Source of the DNA: an uncultured Prevotellaceae bacterium
Lineage (GTDB): Bacteria; Bacteroidota; Bacteroidia; Bacteroidales; Bacteroidaceae
NCBI GenBank assembly: GCA_900318995.1
Contig: ONMR01000018.1
Span: forward strand, 1-60,598
Direction of reading: 5' to 3'
DNA: 60,598 bases
A program made the position numbers and the translations under genes. Shown here piece by piece: positions 6,542 through 12,499 of this stretch. Each line of letters begins with the position of its first letter. Position 1 is the stretch's first letter. The notes beneath the pieces were generated by a model that was not told where the DNA came from, made no database searches, and saw only the letters and a list, made by a program, of their open reading frames with translations.

Positions 6542-7810
6542 TTATCCGCCAAAGTTATCGTACATGATTGATGCGGGATCAACGCCCAGGTTATCCAGCA
6601 TACCGGTAACGGCCTTTGACATGGGGCCAGGACCGCACATGTAGTACTCGATATCCTCAGGTGCCTCATGGTCCTTAAGATAGGTCTCGTACATAACGTT
6701 GTGAACAAATCCGGGAGTGTACTTGACGCCTGCTGCATCGGCTGCGGGATCCGGACGGTCCAGCGCCAGATGGAAGTGGAAGTTCTTGAACTCCTTCTCC
6801 AGACCCAGGAAGTCATCCAGATAGAACACCTCGTTAAGGGCACGTGCACCGTAGAAGTAATGCATCTCACGGTCAGTGGTCTTAAGGGTCTTGGTCATAT
6901 GCATGATCTGTGCACGCAGAGGAGCCATACCGGCACCGCCACCAACCCAGATCATCTCCTTCTTGGAGTCAAAGATAGGATGGAACTCACCGTAAGGACC
7001 TGACATGATAACCTTGTCACCCGGCTTGAGGCTGAAGATATAAGATGAAGCCACACCGGTGGGAACATCCTGGAAACCAACCTCTGGTTTGGGTTTGAAC
7101 GGAGGAGTAGCGATACGTACTGTCAGCATGATGCGGTCACCCTCGGCCGGATAGTTGGCCATAGAGTAAGCACGGATGGTAGGCTCGGTAACTACAGACT
7201 TAAGGCCGAAGAGACCGAACTTCTCCCATGCGGGCAGATACTCGGGACCGATGAGGTCCTTATCGATATCCTTGTCATAATCCATTGTGTATGCGGGAAT
7301 CTTGATCTGAGCGTAACTTCCGGGCAGGAAATCCATGTGCTCTCCGGGAGGAAGCTGCACGATGAACTCCTTGATGAAGGTAGCCACGTTCTTGTTGGAG
7401 ATAACCTCGCACTCCCACTCCTTGACACCGAGTACGCTCTCGGGAACCTTGATGGCCAGGTCACCCTTGACCTTGCACTGGCAACCCAGACGCCAGTTGT
7501 CCTTGATCTGCTTGCGTGTAAAGTGGCCCTTCTCAGAGTCCAGAATCTCACCGCCGCCCTCAACGACCTGGCATTTGCACTGACCGCAAGAACCCTTACC
7601 ACCGCAGGCTGAGGGCAGATAAACGCCGTTCTCGGCCAGGGTGCTCAGAAGGCTTGCGCCTGAATTCACCTCAAGTTCCTTGTCGCCGTTGATTGTTACC
7701 TTTACCTTGCCTGAGGCAACAAGGTAGCTCTTGGCCACCAGCAGGATAACTACCAGCAGCAATATAACGGTCAGGAAAACTATAATACTTGAAATATAGA
7801 TGTTGTTCAT
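6542..7810 (-). CDS. nqrF: Na+-translocating NADH:quinone reductase subunit F
   Basis: 422 residues. NqrF takes hydride from cytoplasmic NADH onto FAD and passes electrons through a [2Fe-2S] cluster into the membrane part of Na+-NQR. An N-terminal membrane helix (about 7-28) precedes a ferredoxin domain with Cys69, Cys75, Cys78 and Cys110 (SACGGKGSCGQC, WRLGC). The reductase part has RAYSMANYP for FAD binding, GGGAGMAPLRAQI and YYMCGPGPM for NADH binding. Length and order are normal. It is the last gene of the nqrABCDEF operon, 12 bp after nqrE. Confidence 0.97.
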   Translation of the reverse strand: MNNIYISSIIVFLTVILLLVVILLVAKSYLVASGKVKVTINGDKELEVNSGASLLSTLAENGVYLPSACGGKGSCGQCKCQVVEGGGEILDSEKGHFTRKQIKDNWRLGCQCKVKGDLAIKVPESVLGVKEWECEVISNKNVATFIKEFIVQLPPGEHMDFLPGSYAQIKIPAYTMDYDKDIDKDLIGPEYLPAWEKFGLFGLKSVVTEPTIRAYSMANYPAEGDRIMLTVRIATPPFKPKPEVGFQDVPTGVASSYIFSLKPGDKVIMSGPYGEFHPIFDSKKEMIWVGGGAGMAPLRAQIMHMTKTLKTTDREMHYFYGARALNEVFYLDDFLGLEKEFKNFHFHLALDRPDPAADAAGVKYTPGFVHNVMYETYLKDHEAPEDIEYYMCGPGPMSKAVTGMLDNLGVDPASIMYDNFGG

Positions 7811-7822
7811 AATATTACCTTT

Positions 7823-8431
7823 TTAAATTGCCAGACCTGAGAAGCACATGAAAGCCATAGCCATCAGACCTACGGTAATGAATGTAATGCCCACACCCTT
7901 CAGAGGCTTGGGGATATCGCAGTATTCCATCTTCTCACGGATGGCAGCCAGGCAGACGATAGCCAGAGCCCAACCGATACCGGAACCCAGTGCATAAGCG
8001 ATTGAGTCACCGAAAGAGGTAATGGCCTGAGTGTTGTCCGGATCCATTCCGATACGCTGCTGCATGAACAGTGATGCACCCATGATGGCGCAGTTCACGG
8101 CGATAAGCGGCAGGAATATACCCAGTGAGTTGTAGAGTGACGGTGAGAATTTCTCGACCACCATCTCAACCAGCTGGACTATACCGGCTATAACAGCGAT
8201 GAAAAGGATGAAACTGAGGAACTCCAGGCCCATGGGCTCAAGGACCTTGGTCTGAAGCAGATAGTTTACAGGGAGTGTAATGAGCTCAACAAAGATTACG
8301 GCTACACCAAGTCCCAAAGACGTCTTTACGTTCTTGGATACGGCCAGGAATGAGCACATACCCAGGAAGAAAGCGAATATCATGTTGTCGACGAATATCG
8401 ACCTTACGAATAAACTGAAGAAATGTTCCAT
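7823..8431 (-). CDS. nqrE: Na+-NQR subunit E
   Basis: 202 residues, a six-helix membrane protein homologous to NqrD and to RnfA. Together NqrD and NqrE hold an iron centre in the membrane, each giving conserved cysteines from half-helices. Visible are [13 protein letters not shown] near the N-terminus and [15 protein letters not shown] in the middle, which supply those cysteines. Spacing to nqrD is 19 bp. Length is normal. Confidence 0.96.
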
Positions 8432-8450: not shown

Positions 8451-9071
8451 TTAGTTTTCCTGTAAATCCTTGTTCTTGGCGCGATGGTACCAGATGATGC
8501 AGCCGGCCAGGATAAGAGCCATAGGCGGCATGATCATAAGACCGTTGTTCAGGTAACCGGCCTCATAGCAGGCCTGCGGTATAACCTGGAAACCGAACAA
8601 TGTTCCGCTACCGAAGAGTTCACGTACAAAAGCAACCACCACCAGGATGGCAGCATAACCCAGACCGTTACCTATACCGTCCAGGAACGATGCCCAGGGA
8701 CCGTTCTGCATGGCAAATGCCTCCAGACGACCCATAAGGATACAGTTGGTAATGATAAGACCTACATATACTGAGAGCTGAACGCTAACATCGTATGCAA
8801 AGGCCTTGAGGATCTCGCTTACTATAGTAACCAGAGCAGCTACCACCACCAGCTGGATGATGATACGGATACGGTTAGGAATAGTATTGCGCAAGAGTGA
8901 AATGATCACGTTAGACATAGCCACGATGACGGTCACTGAAAGGCCCATCACGATGGCAGGTTTGAGCTGAGCCGTTACGGCCAGAGCCGAACATATACCC
9001 AGAATCTGAACCAATACAGGGTTGTTGACCCACAACGGCTGTTTGAAAGCCTCACTGTTCTTGTTTGCCAT
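8451..9071 (-). CDS. nqrD: Na+-NQR subunit D
   Basis: 206 residues from ATG 9071 (MANKNSEAFKQPL). A longer frame reaches back into nqrC, but this start lies 7 bp after the nqrC stop, fits the family's N-terminus and is preferred. Multi-helix membrane subunit; LGICSALAVTAQLKPAI near the N-terminus and LIITNCILMGRLEAFA in the middle carry the conserved cysteines matching those of NqrE. Same fold as RnfE. Confidence 0.95.
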   Translation of the reverse strand: MANKNSEAFKQPLWVNNPVLVQILGICSALAVTAQLKPAIVMGLSVTVIVAMSNVIISLLRNTIPNRIRIIIQLVVVAALVTIVSEILKAFAYDVSVQLSVYVGLIITNCILMGRLEAFAMQNGPWASFLDGIGNGLGYAAILVVVAFVRELFGSGTLFGFQVIPQACYEAGYLNNGLMIMPPMALILAGCIIWYHRAKNKDLQEN

Positions 9072-9078
9072 AATCCTA

Positions 9079-9963
9079 TCAGTCGTTAGAGTTTTCATCG
9101 CAGCACTCATCGGCACCCTCCTCGCAGCCGCCTTCCTTGCAGCACTGCTTGGTCAGGAACGGGATGTATGCTGACAGCACCTTATTAATCATAGTATTCA
9201 CACCAGTTGATGTGATGGTAGCACCTGTCACACCGTCAACCTCAAACTGTGAGCCCTTGTCGGCCTTGCCGTACTTGACCACCTTGAGGCCAACCTCCTC
9301 ACCGTTAACCACCAACTTGCCGGGGAAACGGTCCTGGAATTTGGTTCCGGCGATTTCACCGCCCAATCCGGGAGTTTCGGATGAGTGTGAGAAATAAACG
9401 CCATAGACTGTGTTGCGGTCCTCATTCAGGGCAATGTAACCCCAGATGGTACCCCACAGGCCAAGTCCGTTCATGGGGATGACAAACTTGCGCTCGCCAT
9501 TAACCTCGGCAACAAAGATGTGCAGGTTACCATTGTCGAACTCACTCTTATAAGAGGTATTGAAATCACCCTCATACTCAGCCATCTTGCCGTTGGGTTG
9601 CATCAGGGCATCGGCCTTGATAACCTCTGCATATGTGCCGGCAACATCGGGCAGGTCACGCATATTCAGGGCAGAGAGTATCTGCTGCTTGGTGTCGTTG
9701 ATTACATTTGCGGTCTGACGCTCCTTGAGTGTCTGTGATACGAACACCAGGAGGAAAGCCACTATGATAACCATTACGGCAGCATAGACGATAGTATATA
9801 CGTTACTGTTGGTGTTGAGACCCTTCTTGGGAGCGGCAGCGCCCTCCTCTACGATCTCCTCGAACTCACTCTGAGGTGCCTGACACATGGGGCACTTCTC
9901 AGGAGCCTTATCTCCTTCGTGGACATAGCCACAAACCTTACATTTGAATTTTTTCGTAGCCAT
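9079..9963 (-). CDS. nqrC: Na+-NQR subunit C with an N-terminal rubredoxin-like domain
   Basis: 294 residues, longer than typical NqrC (about 230-260). Residues 6-34 form a rubrerythrin-type rubredoxin/zinc ribbon: Cys8-x2-Cys11-G-Y, EGDKAPEKCPMC with Cys24 and Cys27, then APQSEF. A linker of about 20 residues leads to the normal NqrC membrane helix (about 55-75) and the outer domain, which carries covalent FMN on Thr249 in DGVTGATITST. The C-terminus adds an acidic tail with five cysteines (274, 275, 280, 287, 288). By the known NqrC topology the ribbon would be cytoplasmic, near the NqrF side, and the tail outside. The ribbon and tail are seen directly; a redox role is inference. It sits in a normal operon position, 5 bp after nqrB. 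Confidence 0.93.
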   Translation of the reverse strand: MATKKFKCKVCGYVHEGDKAPEKCPMCQAPQSEFEEIVEEGAAAPKKGLNTNSNVYTIVYAAVMVIIVAFLLVFVSQTLKERQTANVINDTKQQILSALNMRDLPDVAGTYAEVIKADALMQPNGKMAEYEGDFNTSYKSEFDNGNLHIFVAEVNGERKFVIPMNGLGLWGTIWGYIALNEDRNTVYGVYFSHSSETPGLGGEIAGTKFQDRFPGKLVVNGEEVGLKVVKYGKADKGSQFEVDGVTGATITSTGVNTMINKVLSAYIPFLTKQCCKEGGCEEGADECCDENSND

Positions 9964-9968
9964 AATCC

Positions 9969-11135
9969 TTATTTGTTAATCATTCTTTTTGCACGTTTGT
10001 TCACGTTACGCTGTACTACGCAGTAGTCAATAAGCGGAGCGAAGCAGTTCATGAGCAGGATGGCCAGCATCATACCTTCGGGATAACCGGGGTTCATGAC
10101 GCGGATTGTGATAGCCATCATACCAATGAGCAGACCGTATATCCACTTACCAACCTCTGTACGGGCCGATGTAACCGGATCAGTAGCCATGAATACGGCA
10201 CCGAAGCAGAAACCGCCCAGGCAGATATGCTCGTACCAGGGCATCTGAGCCATTGCGTTGTCGGGACCCCACTGGTTATAAACGAGAGCCATAAGGATAC
10301 CGCCTACGAATACTGAAAGCATTGTCTTCCAGCTGGCGATTCCGGTATAGAGCAGAAGCAGGGCGCCCAGGGCGATTGCAATCACGCTGGTCTCACCTAC
10401 TGAGCCGGGGATGAAGCCCCAAACCATATTCATATCGAATGCGGGAGCGGCAGCGGTGGTAGCGGCTGTACCCAGAGCGGTAGCGGCTGTCATACCGTCA
10501 ATATCGGCACCCAGACCGCAGATTGCGTGATCAACCACCCAAACGGTCTCACCGGTAATTACCGATGGATAGGCAAAGAATATGAATGCGCGGGTAATCA
10601 GGGCAACGTTCAGGAAGTTCATACCTGTACCGCCGAATATCTCCTTTGCAAAGATTACCGAGAAGGCAACGGCTACGGCAAGAATCCACAGAGGTGTGGT
10701 TGCGGGGATAATCAGGGGAATGATGAAACCTGAAACCAGGTAACCCTCCTGAATCTCCTCGTGTTTCCACTGAGCCACGATGAACTCGATTGTAAGACCT
10801 ACTACGTATGAAACGATCAGTCTGGGCAGAACGGCCAGGAAGCCGAACCAGAACTTATTCCAGAATGTAGCCTGCTGAAGCAGACCGGCCAGAGCAAAAT
10901 GCTGATAGCCTACATTGTACATACCGAACAGCAGTGCGGGAACCAGGGCAATCACAACCATGATCATCATACGCTTGCTGTCGAATGAGTCGTGGATGTT
11001 CACACCGTTCTTTGCAGTGTCGTTGGGAACATAAAGGAAGGTCTCGAAACCTTCAAAAACCGAGCGGAAAGCGTGCAGTTTGCCACCCTCCTCAAAATTC
11101 GGTTTGATCTTGTCTATGTAATTTCTTAAACTCAT
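9969..11135 (-). CDS. nqrB: Na+-NQR subunit B
   Basis: 388 residues, a large membrane subunit with about ten helices that carries riboflavin and covalent FMN and forms the main sodium path. The FMN-threonine region is readable as DGMTAATALG (about 213-222), where the usual text is SGAT; the alanine in place of glycine is a mild variation, and Thr219 is the likely attachment residue. Other family blocks are FGMYNVGYQH, GTGMNFLNVALITRAF and ATDPVTSARTEVGKW. It starts 14 bp after nqrA. Confidence 0.95.
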   Translation of the reverse strand: MSLRNYIDKIKPNFEEGGKLHAFRSVFEGFETFLYVPNDTAKNGVNIHDSFDSKRMMIMVVIALVPALLFGMYNVGYQHFALAGLLQQATFWNKFWFGFLAVLPRLIVSYVVGLTIEFIVAQWKHEEIQEGYLVSGFIIPLIIPATTPLWILAVAVAFSVIFAKEIFGGTGMNFLNVALITRAFIFFAYPSVITGETVWVVDHAICGLGADIDGMTAATALGTAATTAAAPAFDMNMVWGFIPGSVGETSVIAIALGALLLLYTGIASWKTMLSVFVGGILMALVYNQWGPDNAMAQMPWYEHICLGGFCFGAVFMATDPVTSARTEVGKWIYGLLIGMMAITIRVMNPGYPEGMMLAILLMNCFAPLIDYCVVQRNVNKRAKRMINK

Positions 11136-11149
11136 GACTTCCTTGGGGT

Positions 11150-12499
11150 TTAGGCCATTTCGGCACGCAGGTTATTCAAGCCCTCACGTACTATACGCTG
11201 AAGCTCAAGTTTAGATGAATCTACAAACTCGCACAGTGCAAAATCCTCGGGGGCGACTTCATAGATACCGTATGCCTCCATCTTGTCGATATTGCCTGTT
11301 ATTATAGCCTTGATAAGGTACTCGGGATAGATATCCATGGGGAACACCTTATCGTACTCGTTTGACATGATCATGTGGCGCTCGCCGCCCTTGATGCGTG
11401 CATCAATGCTGAACGGCTTCTTGCATGCAAGCCAGCTGAAGAATGTGCGGCTTACGCTGAACTGCTTGAAACGGGGAGCTATCCAGCCCATGAACTCGTT
11501 TACATCATCACCCTCGGGGATAACGGTCACCATGTTGGCGAATGCGCCCAGATAATCGTCCTTGGTGCACTTTACACCGGTCAGCACGTTTCCGTTGATT
11601 ATACGGATGTGCTCGGTCCTGTTGAGACGGCCGTCAACGATTGATGATATCTTTGCACCTGCAATGACCTTGAGGTACTGGGGATTGACTATCTCCTCGC
11701 CTGCCACTGCAATGACGCGTGTCATATCCACAACGCCCTTGTTGAACAGACGGCCTATGAAGATGACTGCCTCGGGATCTATTGTCCATACCACCTCACC
11801 CTTGTTGACGGGCTTGATGTGGTTGATCTGTACACCTACGTTACCTGCGGGATGTGCACCCTTGAATGCATACAGGTCAACGTTCTTGGCGTCGGTAAGA
11901 GTCTCGGCTGTCTGGCTGGCGCTGATGCTCAGGGTTGTGGGAGCAATCTTGGCGATTGCGCTCAGACCTGTGCGGAAGTCCAACTCGTTGCCATGGAGCA
12001 CGAACTCAAAGTCAGGAGCAAGCGGTTTGGAATCAAATGCCGACACGAATATGCCGCGGGGAGCATCGGCGGGGTTAGCGATCACGTCGTATGGACGCTG
12101 ACGGAAGAATGAAAAAAGACCTGACTCCAGAAGAGTGGCCTTTACCTCCTCACCTGAGAGCGACTGTACGCTCTTGGTGCCGAACTCTACATAGGTCTGC
12201 TTGGCATCGGGCTTGACCACGATGCTCATGACCTTGCGGCGTGCGCCACGGTTCACTGCCACGACCTCACCGCTTACAGGCGAAACGAATTTCACCTCAG
12301 GGTGGTTCTTGTCAATGAACAGAGCCTCACCGGCCTTGACGGTCTGCTGTTCCTTGACGACCGGCTTGGGAGTGACTCCGGTAAAGTCATCGGGGCATAA
12401 CGCGTATGACTCCGCAAGACCAACCTCTGTCAACTCCTTTACGGGAGCGCCCAGCAACTTGATGTCCAGACCTTTTCGTAAACGAATGATTTCTGCCAT
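11150..12499 (-). CDS. nqrA: Na+-NQR subunit A
   Basis: 449 residues, the soluble cytoplasmic subunit that caps NqrB. The N-terminus IIRLRKGLDIKLLGAP and the barrel-sandwich segment VKAGEALFIDKNHPEVKFVSP with GEVVAVNRGARRKV are typical of NqrA and its RnfC relatives. The C-terminal half holds RTFFSWLACKKPFSIDAR and MDIYPEYLIKAIITGN. It is first in the operon; the -7 box at 12548-12555 should drive all six genes. Confidence 0.95.
   Translation of the reverse strand: MAEIIRLRKGLDIKLLGAPVKELTEVGLAESYALCPDDFTGVTPKPVVKEQQTVKAGEALFIDKNHPEVKFVSPVSGEVVAVNRGARRKVMSIVVKPDAKQTYVEFGTKSVQSLSGEEVKATLLESGLFSFFRQRPYDVIANPADAPRGIFVSAFDSKPLAPDFEFVLHGNELDFRTGLSAIAKIAPTTLSISASQTAETLTDAKNVDLYAFKGAHPAGNVGVQINHIKPVNKGEVVWTIDPEAVIFIGRLFNKGVVDMTRVIAVAGEEIVNPQYLKVIAGAKISSIVDGRLNRTEHIRIINGNVLTGVKCTKDDYLGAFANMVTVIPEGDDVNEFMGWIAPRFKQFSVSRTFFSWLACKKPFSIDARIKGGERHMIMSNEYDKVFPMDIYPEYLIKAIITGNIDKMEAYGIYEVAPEDFALCEFVDSSKLELQRIVREGLNNLRAEMA

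Follow-up and report, generated by a model that had tools for sequence, protein, structure and literature searches.

Na+-NQR is generally regarded as a pump of six subunits that contains a single set of cofactors. The closest described relatives of the NqrC subunit considered here are those of V. cholerae (7xk3, 8a1t) and of Parabacteroides (3lwx, the soluble part). According to the available part of PMC12174285, NqrC has one N-terminal transmembrane helix, and its FMN domain, which lies in the periplasm, swings back and forth from NqrD/E to NqrB. No description of a rubredoxin- or rubrerythrin-type domain or of a Cys-rich tail on NqrC was found in PMC, with subscription papers and architecture databases lying outside the scope of the search. 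The sole PMC match pairing NqrC or Na+-NQR with rubredoxin or rubrerythrin was PMC5924567 (available in part), the word rubredoxin is absent from PMC12174285, and the available parts of PMC10739449 and PMC4014512 mention no such domain. The NqrC described below is a variant in which a known domain occupies a new place. Class F and class D flavodiiron proteins and flavorubredoxin are soluble oxygen reductases and are neither ion pumps nor FMN_bind proteins. In them a short or canonical rubredoxin domain is likewise fused into an NADH-fed flavin chain, as the available part of PMC6033852 describes them.

The window, which is the whole stretch of DNA that was analysed, comprises 60,598 nucleotides and carries a normal, complete nqrABCDEF operon on its minus strand (12499 to 6542). 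The genes nqrA (11150..12499), nqrB (9969..11135), nqrD (8451..9071, starting 7 nt past the nqrC stop), nqrE (7823..8431) and nqrF (6542..7810, with the Fer2, FAD, and NAD domains all matched) each matched their own Pfam/NCBIfam models. Between nqrB and nqrD, at the same position as in the V. cholerae and Parabacteroides systems, lies nqrC (9082..9963, stop codon at 9079-9081), a single open frame (9079-9963) that begins with ATG, encodes 294 aa, and has no internal stops; the plus-strand reading of the same interval is interrupted by stops. The product matched the NqrC family model TIGR01938 with 187.5 bits (NCBIfam, cut-off 144) and scored 301.4 against the subgroup model NF003750, under its cut-off of 352. 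The FMN_bind domain (PF04205, 68.8 bits) was located at residues 168-263 (9175..9462), and the predicted FMN attachment residue is T249 within a DGVTGAT motif (codon 9217-9219). Both this threonine domain and the N-terminal helix are as in the described NqrC proteins.

The first 37 residues (9853..9963) form a short-spaced rubredoxin ribbon. The Pfam model RUBY_RBDX matched residues 6-35 with an E value of 3.8e-15 and 55.5 bits (cut-off 26.5), a whole-genome profile search with PF21349 placed its NqrC match at 9859-9948, and Cys8, Cys11, Cys24, and Cys27 are arranged as CxxC...CPxC with 12 residues between Cys11 and Cys24. An AlphaFold2 model was built on 43 aligned relatives, of which 41 carry the ribbon (41 had been picked as fused and 2 as unfused), and it reached a mean pLDDT of 84.2 and a pTM of 0.68. 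It consists of an ordered ribbon (mean pLDDT 79 for residues 1-10, 86 for 11-20, and 90 for 21-30), a flexible linker (residues 38-53, 9805..9852) with pLDDT below 50 at 39-49, a long helix at residues 54-98 (9670..9804) assigned as the membrane helix and its continuation from the AlphaFold2 secondary structure and homology to V. cholerae NqrC, then the FMN domain, and finally a tail modelled with low confidence. Foldseek ranked 3lwx first for this model, the match lying in the FMN-binding fold. The rubrerythrins 1b71, 1ryt, and 9fj2, whose sequences match the ribbon, and the ferredoxin-dependent disulfide reductase 4tpu gave shorter matches (37-44 columns). The sequence-only reading had described, without assigning a strand, this uninterrupted frame of ribbon, NqrC, and tail, with the same four cysteines, threonine 249, and a helix at 55-75; the family and domain matches and the model agree with it.

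Vibrio NqrC (257 aa) aligned solely from residue 151 of the present protein onward, in line with the earlier claim that the Vibrio enzyme lacks these additions, and to our knowledge it has no ribbon. The 3lwx sequence aligned solely from residue 77 onward and, as a construct, cannot show a ribbon; its nearest full-length relative among the proteins gathered (L188) shares 89% identity with it across 197 residues and carries the fusion.

The distribution of the ribbon was determined by searches at four levels. In the genus (37 genomes), 30 of 32 NqrC rows start at the ribbon, and the two unfused members start with MATKKINTSSN (G030) and MATNKLNTNSN (G015, whose nqrC gene extends off the contig at its far end), so that the ribbon is gone and the opening residues are kept. 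The family search (301 genomes) gave 77 rows with the ribbon and 73 without it among the 150 highest-scoring NqrC matches listed. In the wider samples, of 148 genomes each, the ribbon is rare: 4 of 121 NqrC rows were fused in the order (the present one and those of G353, G410, and G330) and none of 32 besides the present one in the phylum, with some matches in both samples spanning the FMN half alone and a very divergent ribbon being able to escape. Among the named carriers are Paraprevotella xylaniphila YIT 11841, P. clara YIT 11840, Parabacteroides bouchesdurhonensis Marseille-P3763, and Alistipes sp. An66. The same architecture was found in 109 of the 165 distinct NqrC proteins gathered (at least 200 residues), a set enriched for ribbons through one seed peptide, MATKKFKC, which is the ribbon start, and through the deliberate fetching of carriers; neither ribbon nor Cys tail was present in any of the 9 proteins of the paralogue RnfG read from 10 genomes searched. 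Since the fused label is a pattern of four Cys, G12, and P25, the invariance of these positions (109/109) is by construction; outside the pattern, P21 was found in 109/109, Y13 in 102/109, H15 in 98/109, and F34 in 102/109. The architecture is far beyond chance and is well supported. The joining of two genes by an assembly error, which the sequence-only reading had named as an outcome that would overturn it, is ruled out by the recurrence of the fusion in many genomes and in named strains. One record in this collection (L031, Clostridium sp. NALB_7961_31) has an nqr operon that falls within the Paraprevotella clade, and its name looks wrong.

The NqrC ribbon is most closely related to the ribbons that reverse rubrerythrins carry at their N-terminus, and the same genome encodes one such rubrerythrin (184 aa, PF21349 and PF02915). 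That genome (86.8% complete) has three ribbons above the Pfam cut-off, namely those of the reverse rubrerythrin, of a classical rubrerythrin, and of NqrC, and it also encodes a free rubredoxin. Reverse rubrerythrins, in which an N-terminal ribbon precedes a diiron bundle, share the spacing and the core of the NqrC ribbon; NqrC, however, has no diiron bundle, and because the PF02915 domain is absent from it (Pfam) despite the ribbon, it is not a rubrerythrin. Classical rubrerythrins carry the same Pfam domain, and 1b71 matches the NqrC ribbon, but their ribbon is C-terminal and their N and H near the cysteines are V and A in NqrC. Plain identity failed to separate NqrC ribbons from rubrerythrin-type ribbons, the means being 0.67-0.75 between NqrC groups and inside the Bacteroidaceae group and reaching 0.75 to the rubrerythrin-type ribbon L218. 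Three positions differed in their preferences: K7 in 64 of 88 NqrC ribbons against I7 in 16 of 19 N-terminal rubrerythrin-type ribbons, E33 in 58/88 against K33 in 19/19, and E35 in 57/88 against K35 in 10/19. Among the 20 rubrerythrin-type ribbons compared, "reverse" was called from the position in the frame, and the diiron domain was checked in the one from the same genome.

Quick trees were computed for NqrC (141 rows, 88 fused) and for the concatenated NqrA, NqrB, NqrD, NqrE, and NqrF (139 rows, 86 fused). On the operon tree, 16 changes of the fused state are needed, 15 of them forced by supported branches, and on the NqrC body tree 19, of which 9 are forced. When the 33-residue ribbons were placed on a tree together with the 20 rubrerythrin-type ribbons, 4 changes of label sufficed, 1 of them forced, and the NqrC ribbons look like one group. 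One or a few captures of the ribbon followed by many losses are the likely history, and recombination may have spread it. The donor type would be a reverse rubrerythrin, from which, as we infer from the sequence affinities, a ribbon already at the protein start was taken. Given the 16 state changes on the operon tree, the ribbon is dispensable.

Purifying selection acts on the ribbon. Pooled dN/dS values from 23 genus sequences were 0.13 for the ribbon, 0.11 for the tether, 0.06 for the transmembrane segment, 0.17 for the body, and 0.24 for the tail, and the ribbon was more similar than the body in 5,479 of 5,886 fused pairs, in a set biased to common-start ribbons. These values bear on the reading that the ribbon is a neutral or expression leader, a well-translating start region that is tolerated. 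Its frequent clean absence, including the two genus members that keep just MATKK or MATNK, is what such a leader would leave. We nevertheless regard it as highly improbable, considering the dN/dS of 0.13, one relative with three tandem ribbons, and the lack of any half-decayed ribbon, there being no Cys in the first 12 residues in 58 of 58 unfused loci. Within the genus, pS was 0.31 in the ribbon (9853-9963) and 0.46-0.54 in the rest of nqrC; the low ribbon value could come from start-region constraint or from segment exchange.

Our best guess for the function, held tentatively and at somewhat less than an even chance, is that the ribbon is a cytoplasmic FeCys4 site by which electrons leave the pump for rubredoxin-linked oxygen defence. 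NqrC would have gained the short-spaced ribbon of a reverse rubrerythrin at its presumed cytoplasmic N-terminus, where a flexible tether would join it to the foot of the membrane helix. There it would bind iron at a potential near 0 mV, draw single electrons from a reduced pump centre, either the NqrF 2Fe-2S or the NqrD/E 2Fe-2S, and pass them to cytosolic rubredoxin, rubrerythrins, and perhaps a flavodiiron protein for defence against O2 and peroxide, so that the sodium pump would have an optional outlet, or overflow valve, for electrons. Menaquinone lies at about -74 mV. At what we take to be the exact places of the potential-raising Asn and His of classical ribbons, the classical rubrerythrin of the same genome has N and H, and 0 of 86 fused NqrC rows have them, V/I/L/Q and A/V/Q/S being found instead. 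These two residues are held responsible for the high potential of classical rubrerythrin ribbons in the available part of PMC6033852. Classical ribbons range from +185 to +281 mV, and the ribbons of the C. difficile reverse rubrerythrins bind iron at +10 and -10 mV (PMC7482061). Since neither residue is found at these places in fused NqrC proteins, we predict that the ribbon, if it binds iron, lies near 0 mV, although one flavodiiron short rubredoxin at -110 mV (PMC6033852, available part) makes sequence a weak guide to potential. With NADH at -320 mV (PMC12174285, available part), a ribbon near 0 mV would be downhill from NADH and somewhat above menaquinone, which fits an exit better than an in-line carrier.

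The cytoplasmic placement, also claimed by the sequence-only reading, follows by homology from the NqrC topology in the available part of PMC12174285, which at the same time puts the tail in the periplasm. With none of the other nqr subunits and none of the NqrF domains missing, the ribbon adds to the pump rather than replacing a part of it. Candidate acceptors in the genome are one rubredoxin and two rubrerythrins, and since the NqrC ribbon comes closest to the reverse rubrerythrin ribbons, a rubredoxin-linked role in oxygen defence stays plausible. In B. thetaiotaomicron, electrons pass from NADH to rubredoxin to Roo, with NROR as one source but not the sole one, according to the available part of PMC5210497. 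That the fusion substitutes for free rubredoxin was rejected: a PF00301 match was missing from 15 genomes in the fused set of 77 and from 9 in the unfused set of 73 (Fisher p 0.27), the genomes being classed from the 150 NqrC matches listed and many of them being incomplete. Four genomes of the same genus (G019, G022, G017, and G024) have no PF00301 match at 96-100% completeness and do have a ribbon NqrC. Counting against the electron exit are the many switches of ribbon state on the operon tree, the six of 88 fused rows with CGQ or CGK in place of CGY, the missing tie to rubredoxin loss, and the failure of any column in the other five subunits to stand out as co-changing with the ribbon.

A structural or docking module is a serious rival to the electron exit, if a somewhat unlikely one. 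Here the ribbon would hold zinc, or iron without turnover, and would serve assembly, stability, or contact, for example by keeping NqrF or a reverse rubrerythrin near the pump. The shifts from K to E at positions 33 and 35, which imply an altered contact surface, would suit such a module, as would the frequent changes of the ribbon state on the operon tree and a tether of variable length, the distance from the fourth Cys to the pre-helix motif being about 16-36 residues in 87 of the 88 fused rows measured with a loose pattern. So would the six of 88 fused rows in which CGQ or CGK replaces CGY and the following H/Y and G are missing, so that the aromatic core is lost while the four Cys, themselves part of the fused pattern, are kept. 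These variants (CGQTFEA, CGQVFEA, and CGKTFEA in L137 and L146-L150, genera g11 and g22) have no Fe-type aromatic and, by their sequence, may be zinc sites, that is, a possible metal switch. On the other hand, the CGY.(H/Y).G core common to reverse rubrerythrins is kept in the remaining 82 of 88 fused rows, and a scan for columns of NqrA, NqrB, NqrD, NqrE, and NqrF co-changing with the ribbon returned none that stands out in 2,233 tests, the best column going on average the same way as the ribbon in 7.4 and the opposite way in 1.4 of the 15 pairs.

The same scan weighs on a third reading, that the ribbon is a redox sensor: O2 or peroxide would oxidise its iron site, and through the NqrC helix, which moves during the catalytic cycle, the pump would be slowed or rerouted. 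NqrC, including its transmembrane helix, takes different positions among the modelled states in the available part of PMC10739449, its movement is also reported in that of PMC12174285, and reverse rubrerythrins reduce O2 and peroxide according to that of PMC7482061. No co-change with NqrB, NqrD, or NqrE accompanies the ribbon, however, and we consider a sensor improbable, below both the docking module and the preferred electron exit.

The acidic C-terminal tail (residues 273-294, 9082..9147) contains C274, C275, C280, C287, and C288, the five cysteines noted in the sequence-only reading, and its pLDDT is below 50 at residues 281-286 and 288-294. Tails with at least three Cys were found in 27 of 165 distinct NqrC proteins (22 of 109 fused and 5 of 56 unfused), and at least three Cys within the last 30 residues in 8/144 NqrA, 0/164 NqrB, 0/163 NqrD, 0/160 NqrE, and 0/143 NqrF. 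This trait needs 14 changes on the operon tree, 12 of them forced; the mean for shuffled labels is about 16.4, and 11-13 of 500 shuffles give so low a number, so that the trait is only weakly clustered. Some relatives have tails of 14-35 Cys built from unlike repeats, such as a 39-bp unit in 3.8 copies in L130 and 35 Cys in about 150 residues in L150. Tails of 8-35 Cys, which occur on both fused and unfused NqrC, were recorded in L150 (G257), L130/L121 (G232/G127), L132 (= L043), L139 (= L060), L206 (G416), L174, L102, and L103. Pooled over 17 Cys-rich tails, Cys accounts for 162 of 832 residues; the tail of the present NqrC has only five. In 12 of 12 loci checked, nqrD starts 7-35 nt past the nqrC stop, and the Cys tails are therefore true coding ends. 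Other long tails (23 with at least 15 residues) are rich in A and E instead of Cys, so that a tail as such is not special.

Ribbon and tail had been presented as one package, and this part of the sequence-only reading was not supported. The two lie on opposite membrane sides by homology, and each is found without the other. As a claim, a single module was rejected: among 15 independent pairs the tail follows the ribbon in 1.8 and runs opposite to it in 2.3, numbers too small for significance in either direction, in a test of little power. By analogy, the long Cys tails of the relatives appear metallothionein-like, and they would be periplasmic by homology. The Cys tail is probably an unrelated periplasmic add-on and, to judge from its composition, probably metal- or thiol-active.

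In the gut genera with named strains (Paraprevotella, Parabacteroides, and Alistipes), a pump subunit carries one more predicted redox domain, drawn from the toolkit of oxygen defence. A wider proposal, unlikely when taken as a whole, is that Na+-NQR in several gut Bacteroidales lineages would also be an NADH:rubredoxin-type oxidoreductase, with a tethered reverse-rubrerythrin FeCys4 site feeding O2 and peroxide reductases and with repeatedly evolved, metal- or thiol-rich periplasmic tails protecting or serving the exposed FMN. Should the ribbon conduct, gut anaerobes would have their respiration and their oxygen defence physically coupled at the pump. For C. difficile, the available part of PMC7482061 describes as unknown which physiological donor supplies rubrerythrins and flavodiiron proteins with electrons, and for Roo in B. 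thetaiotaomicron the donor is only partly known according to the available part of PMC5210497; with a conducting ribbon, the donor would become testable in Paraprevotella, Parabacteroides, and Alistipes.

Two further arrangements of the ribbon were seen among the relatives. One NqrC of 382 aa (L120, identical to L254, G126:C18) has three tandem ribbons, the first two of which are nearly identical. At another locus (L214, G353:C7), a free-standing frame of 41 residues encoding a short-spaced ribbon adjoins a ribbon-bearing frame of 160 aa.
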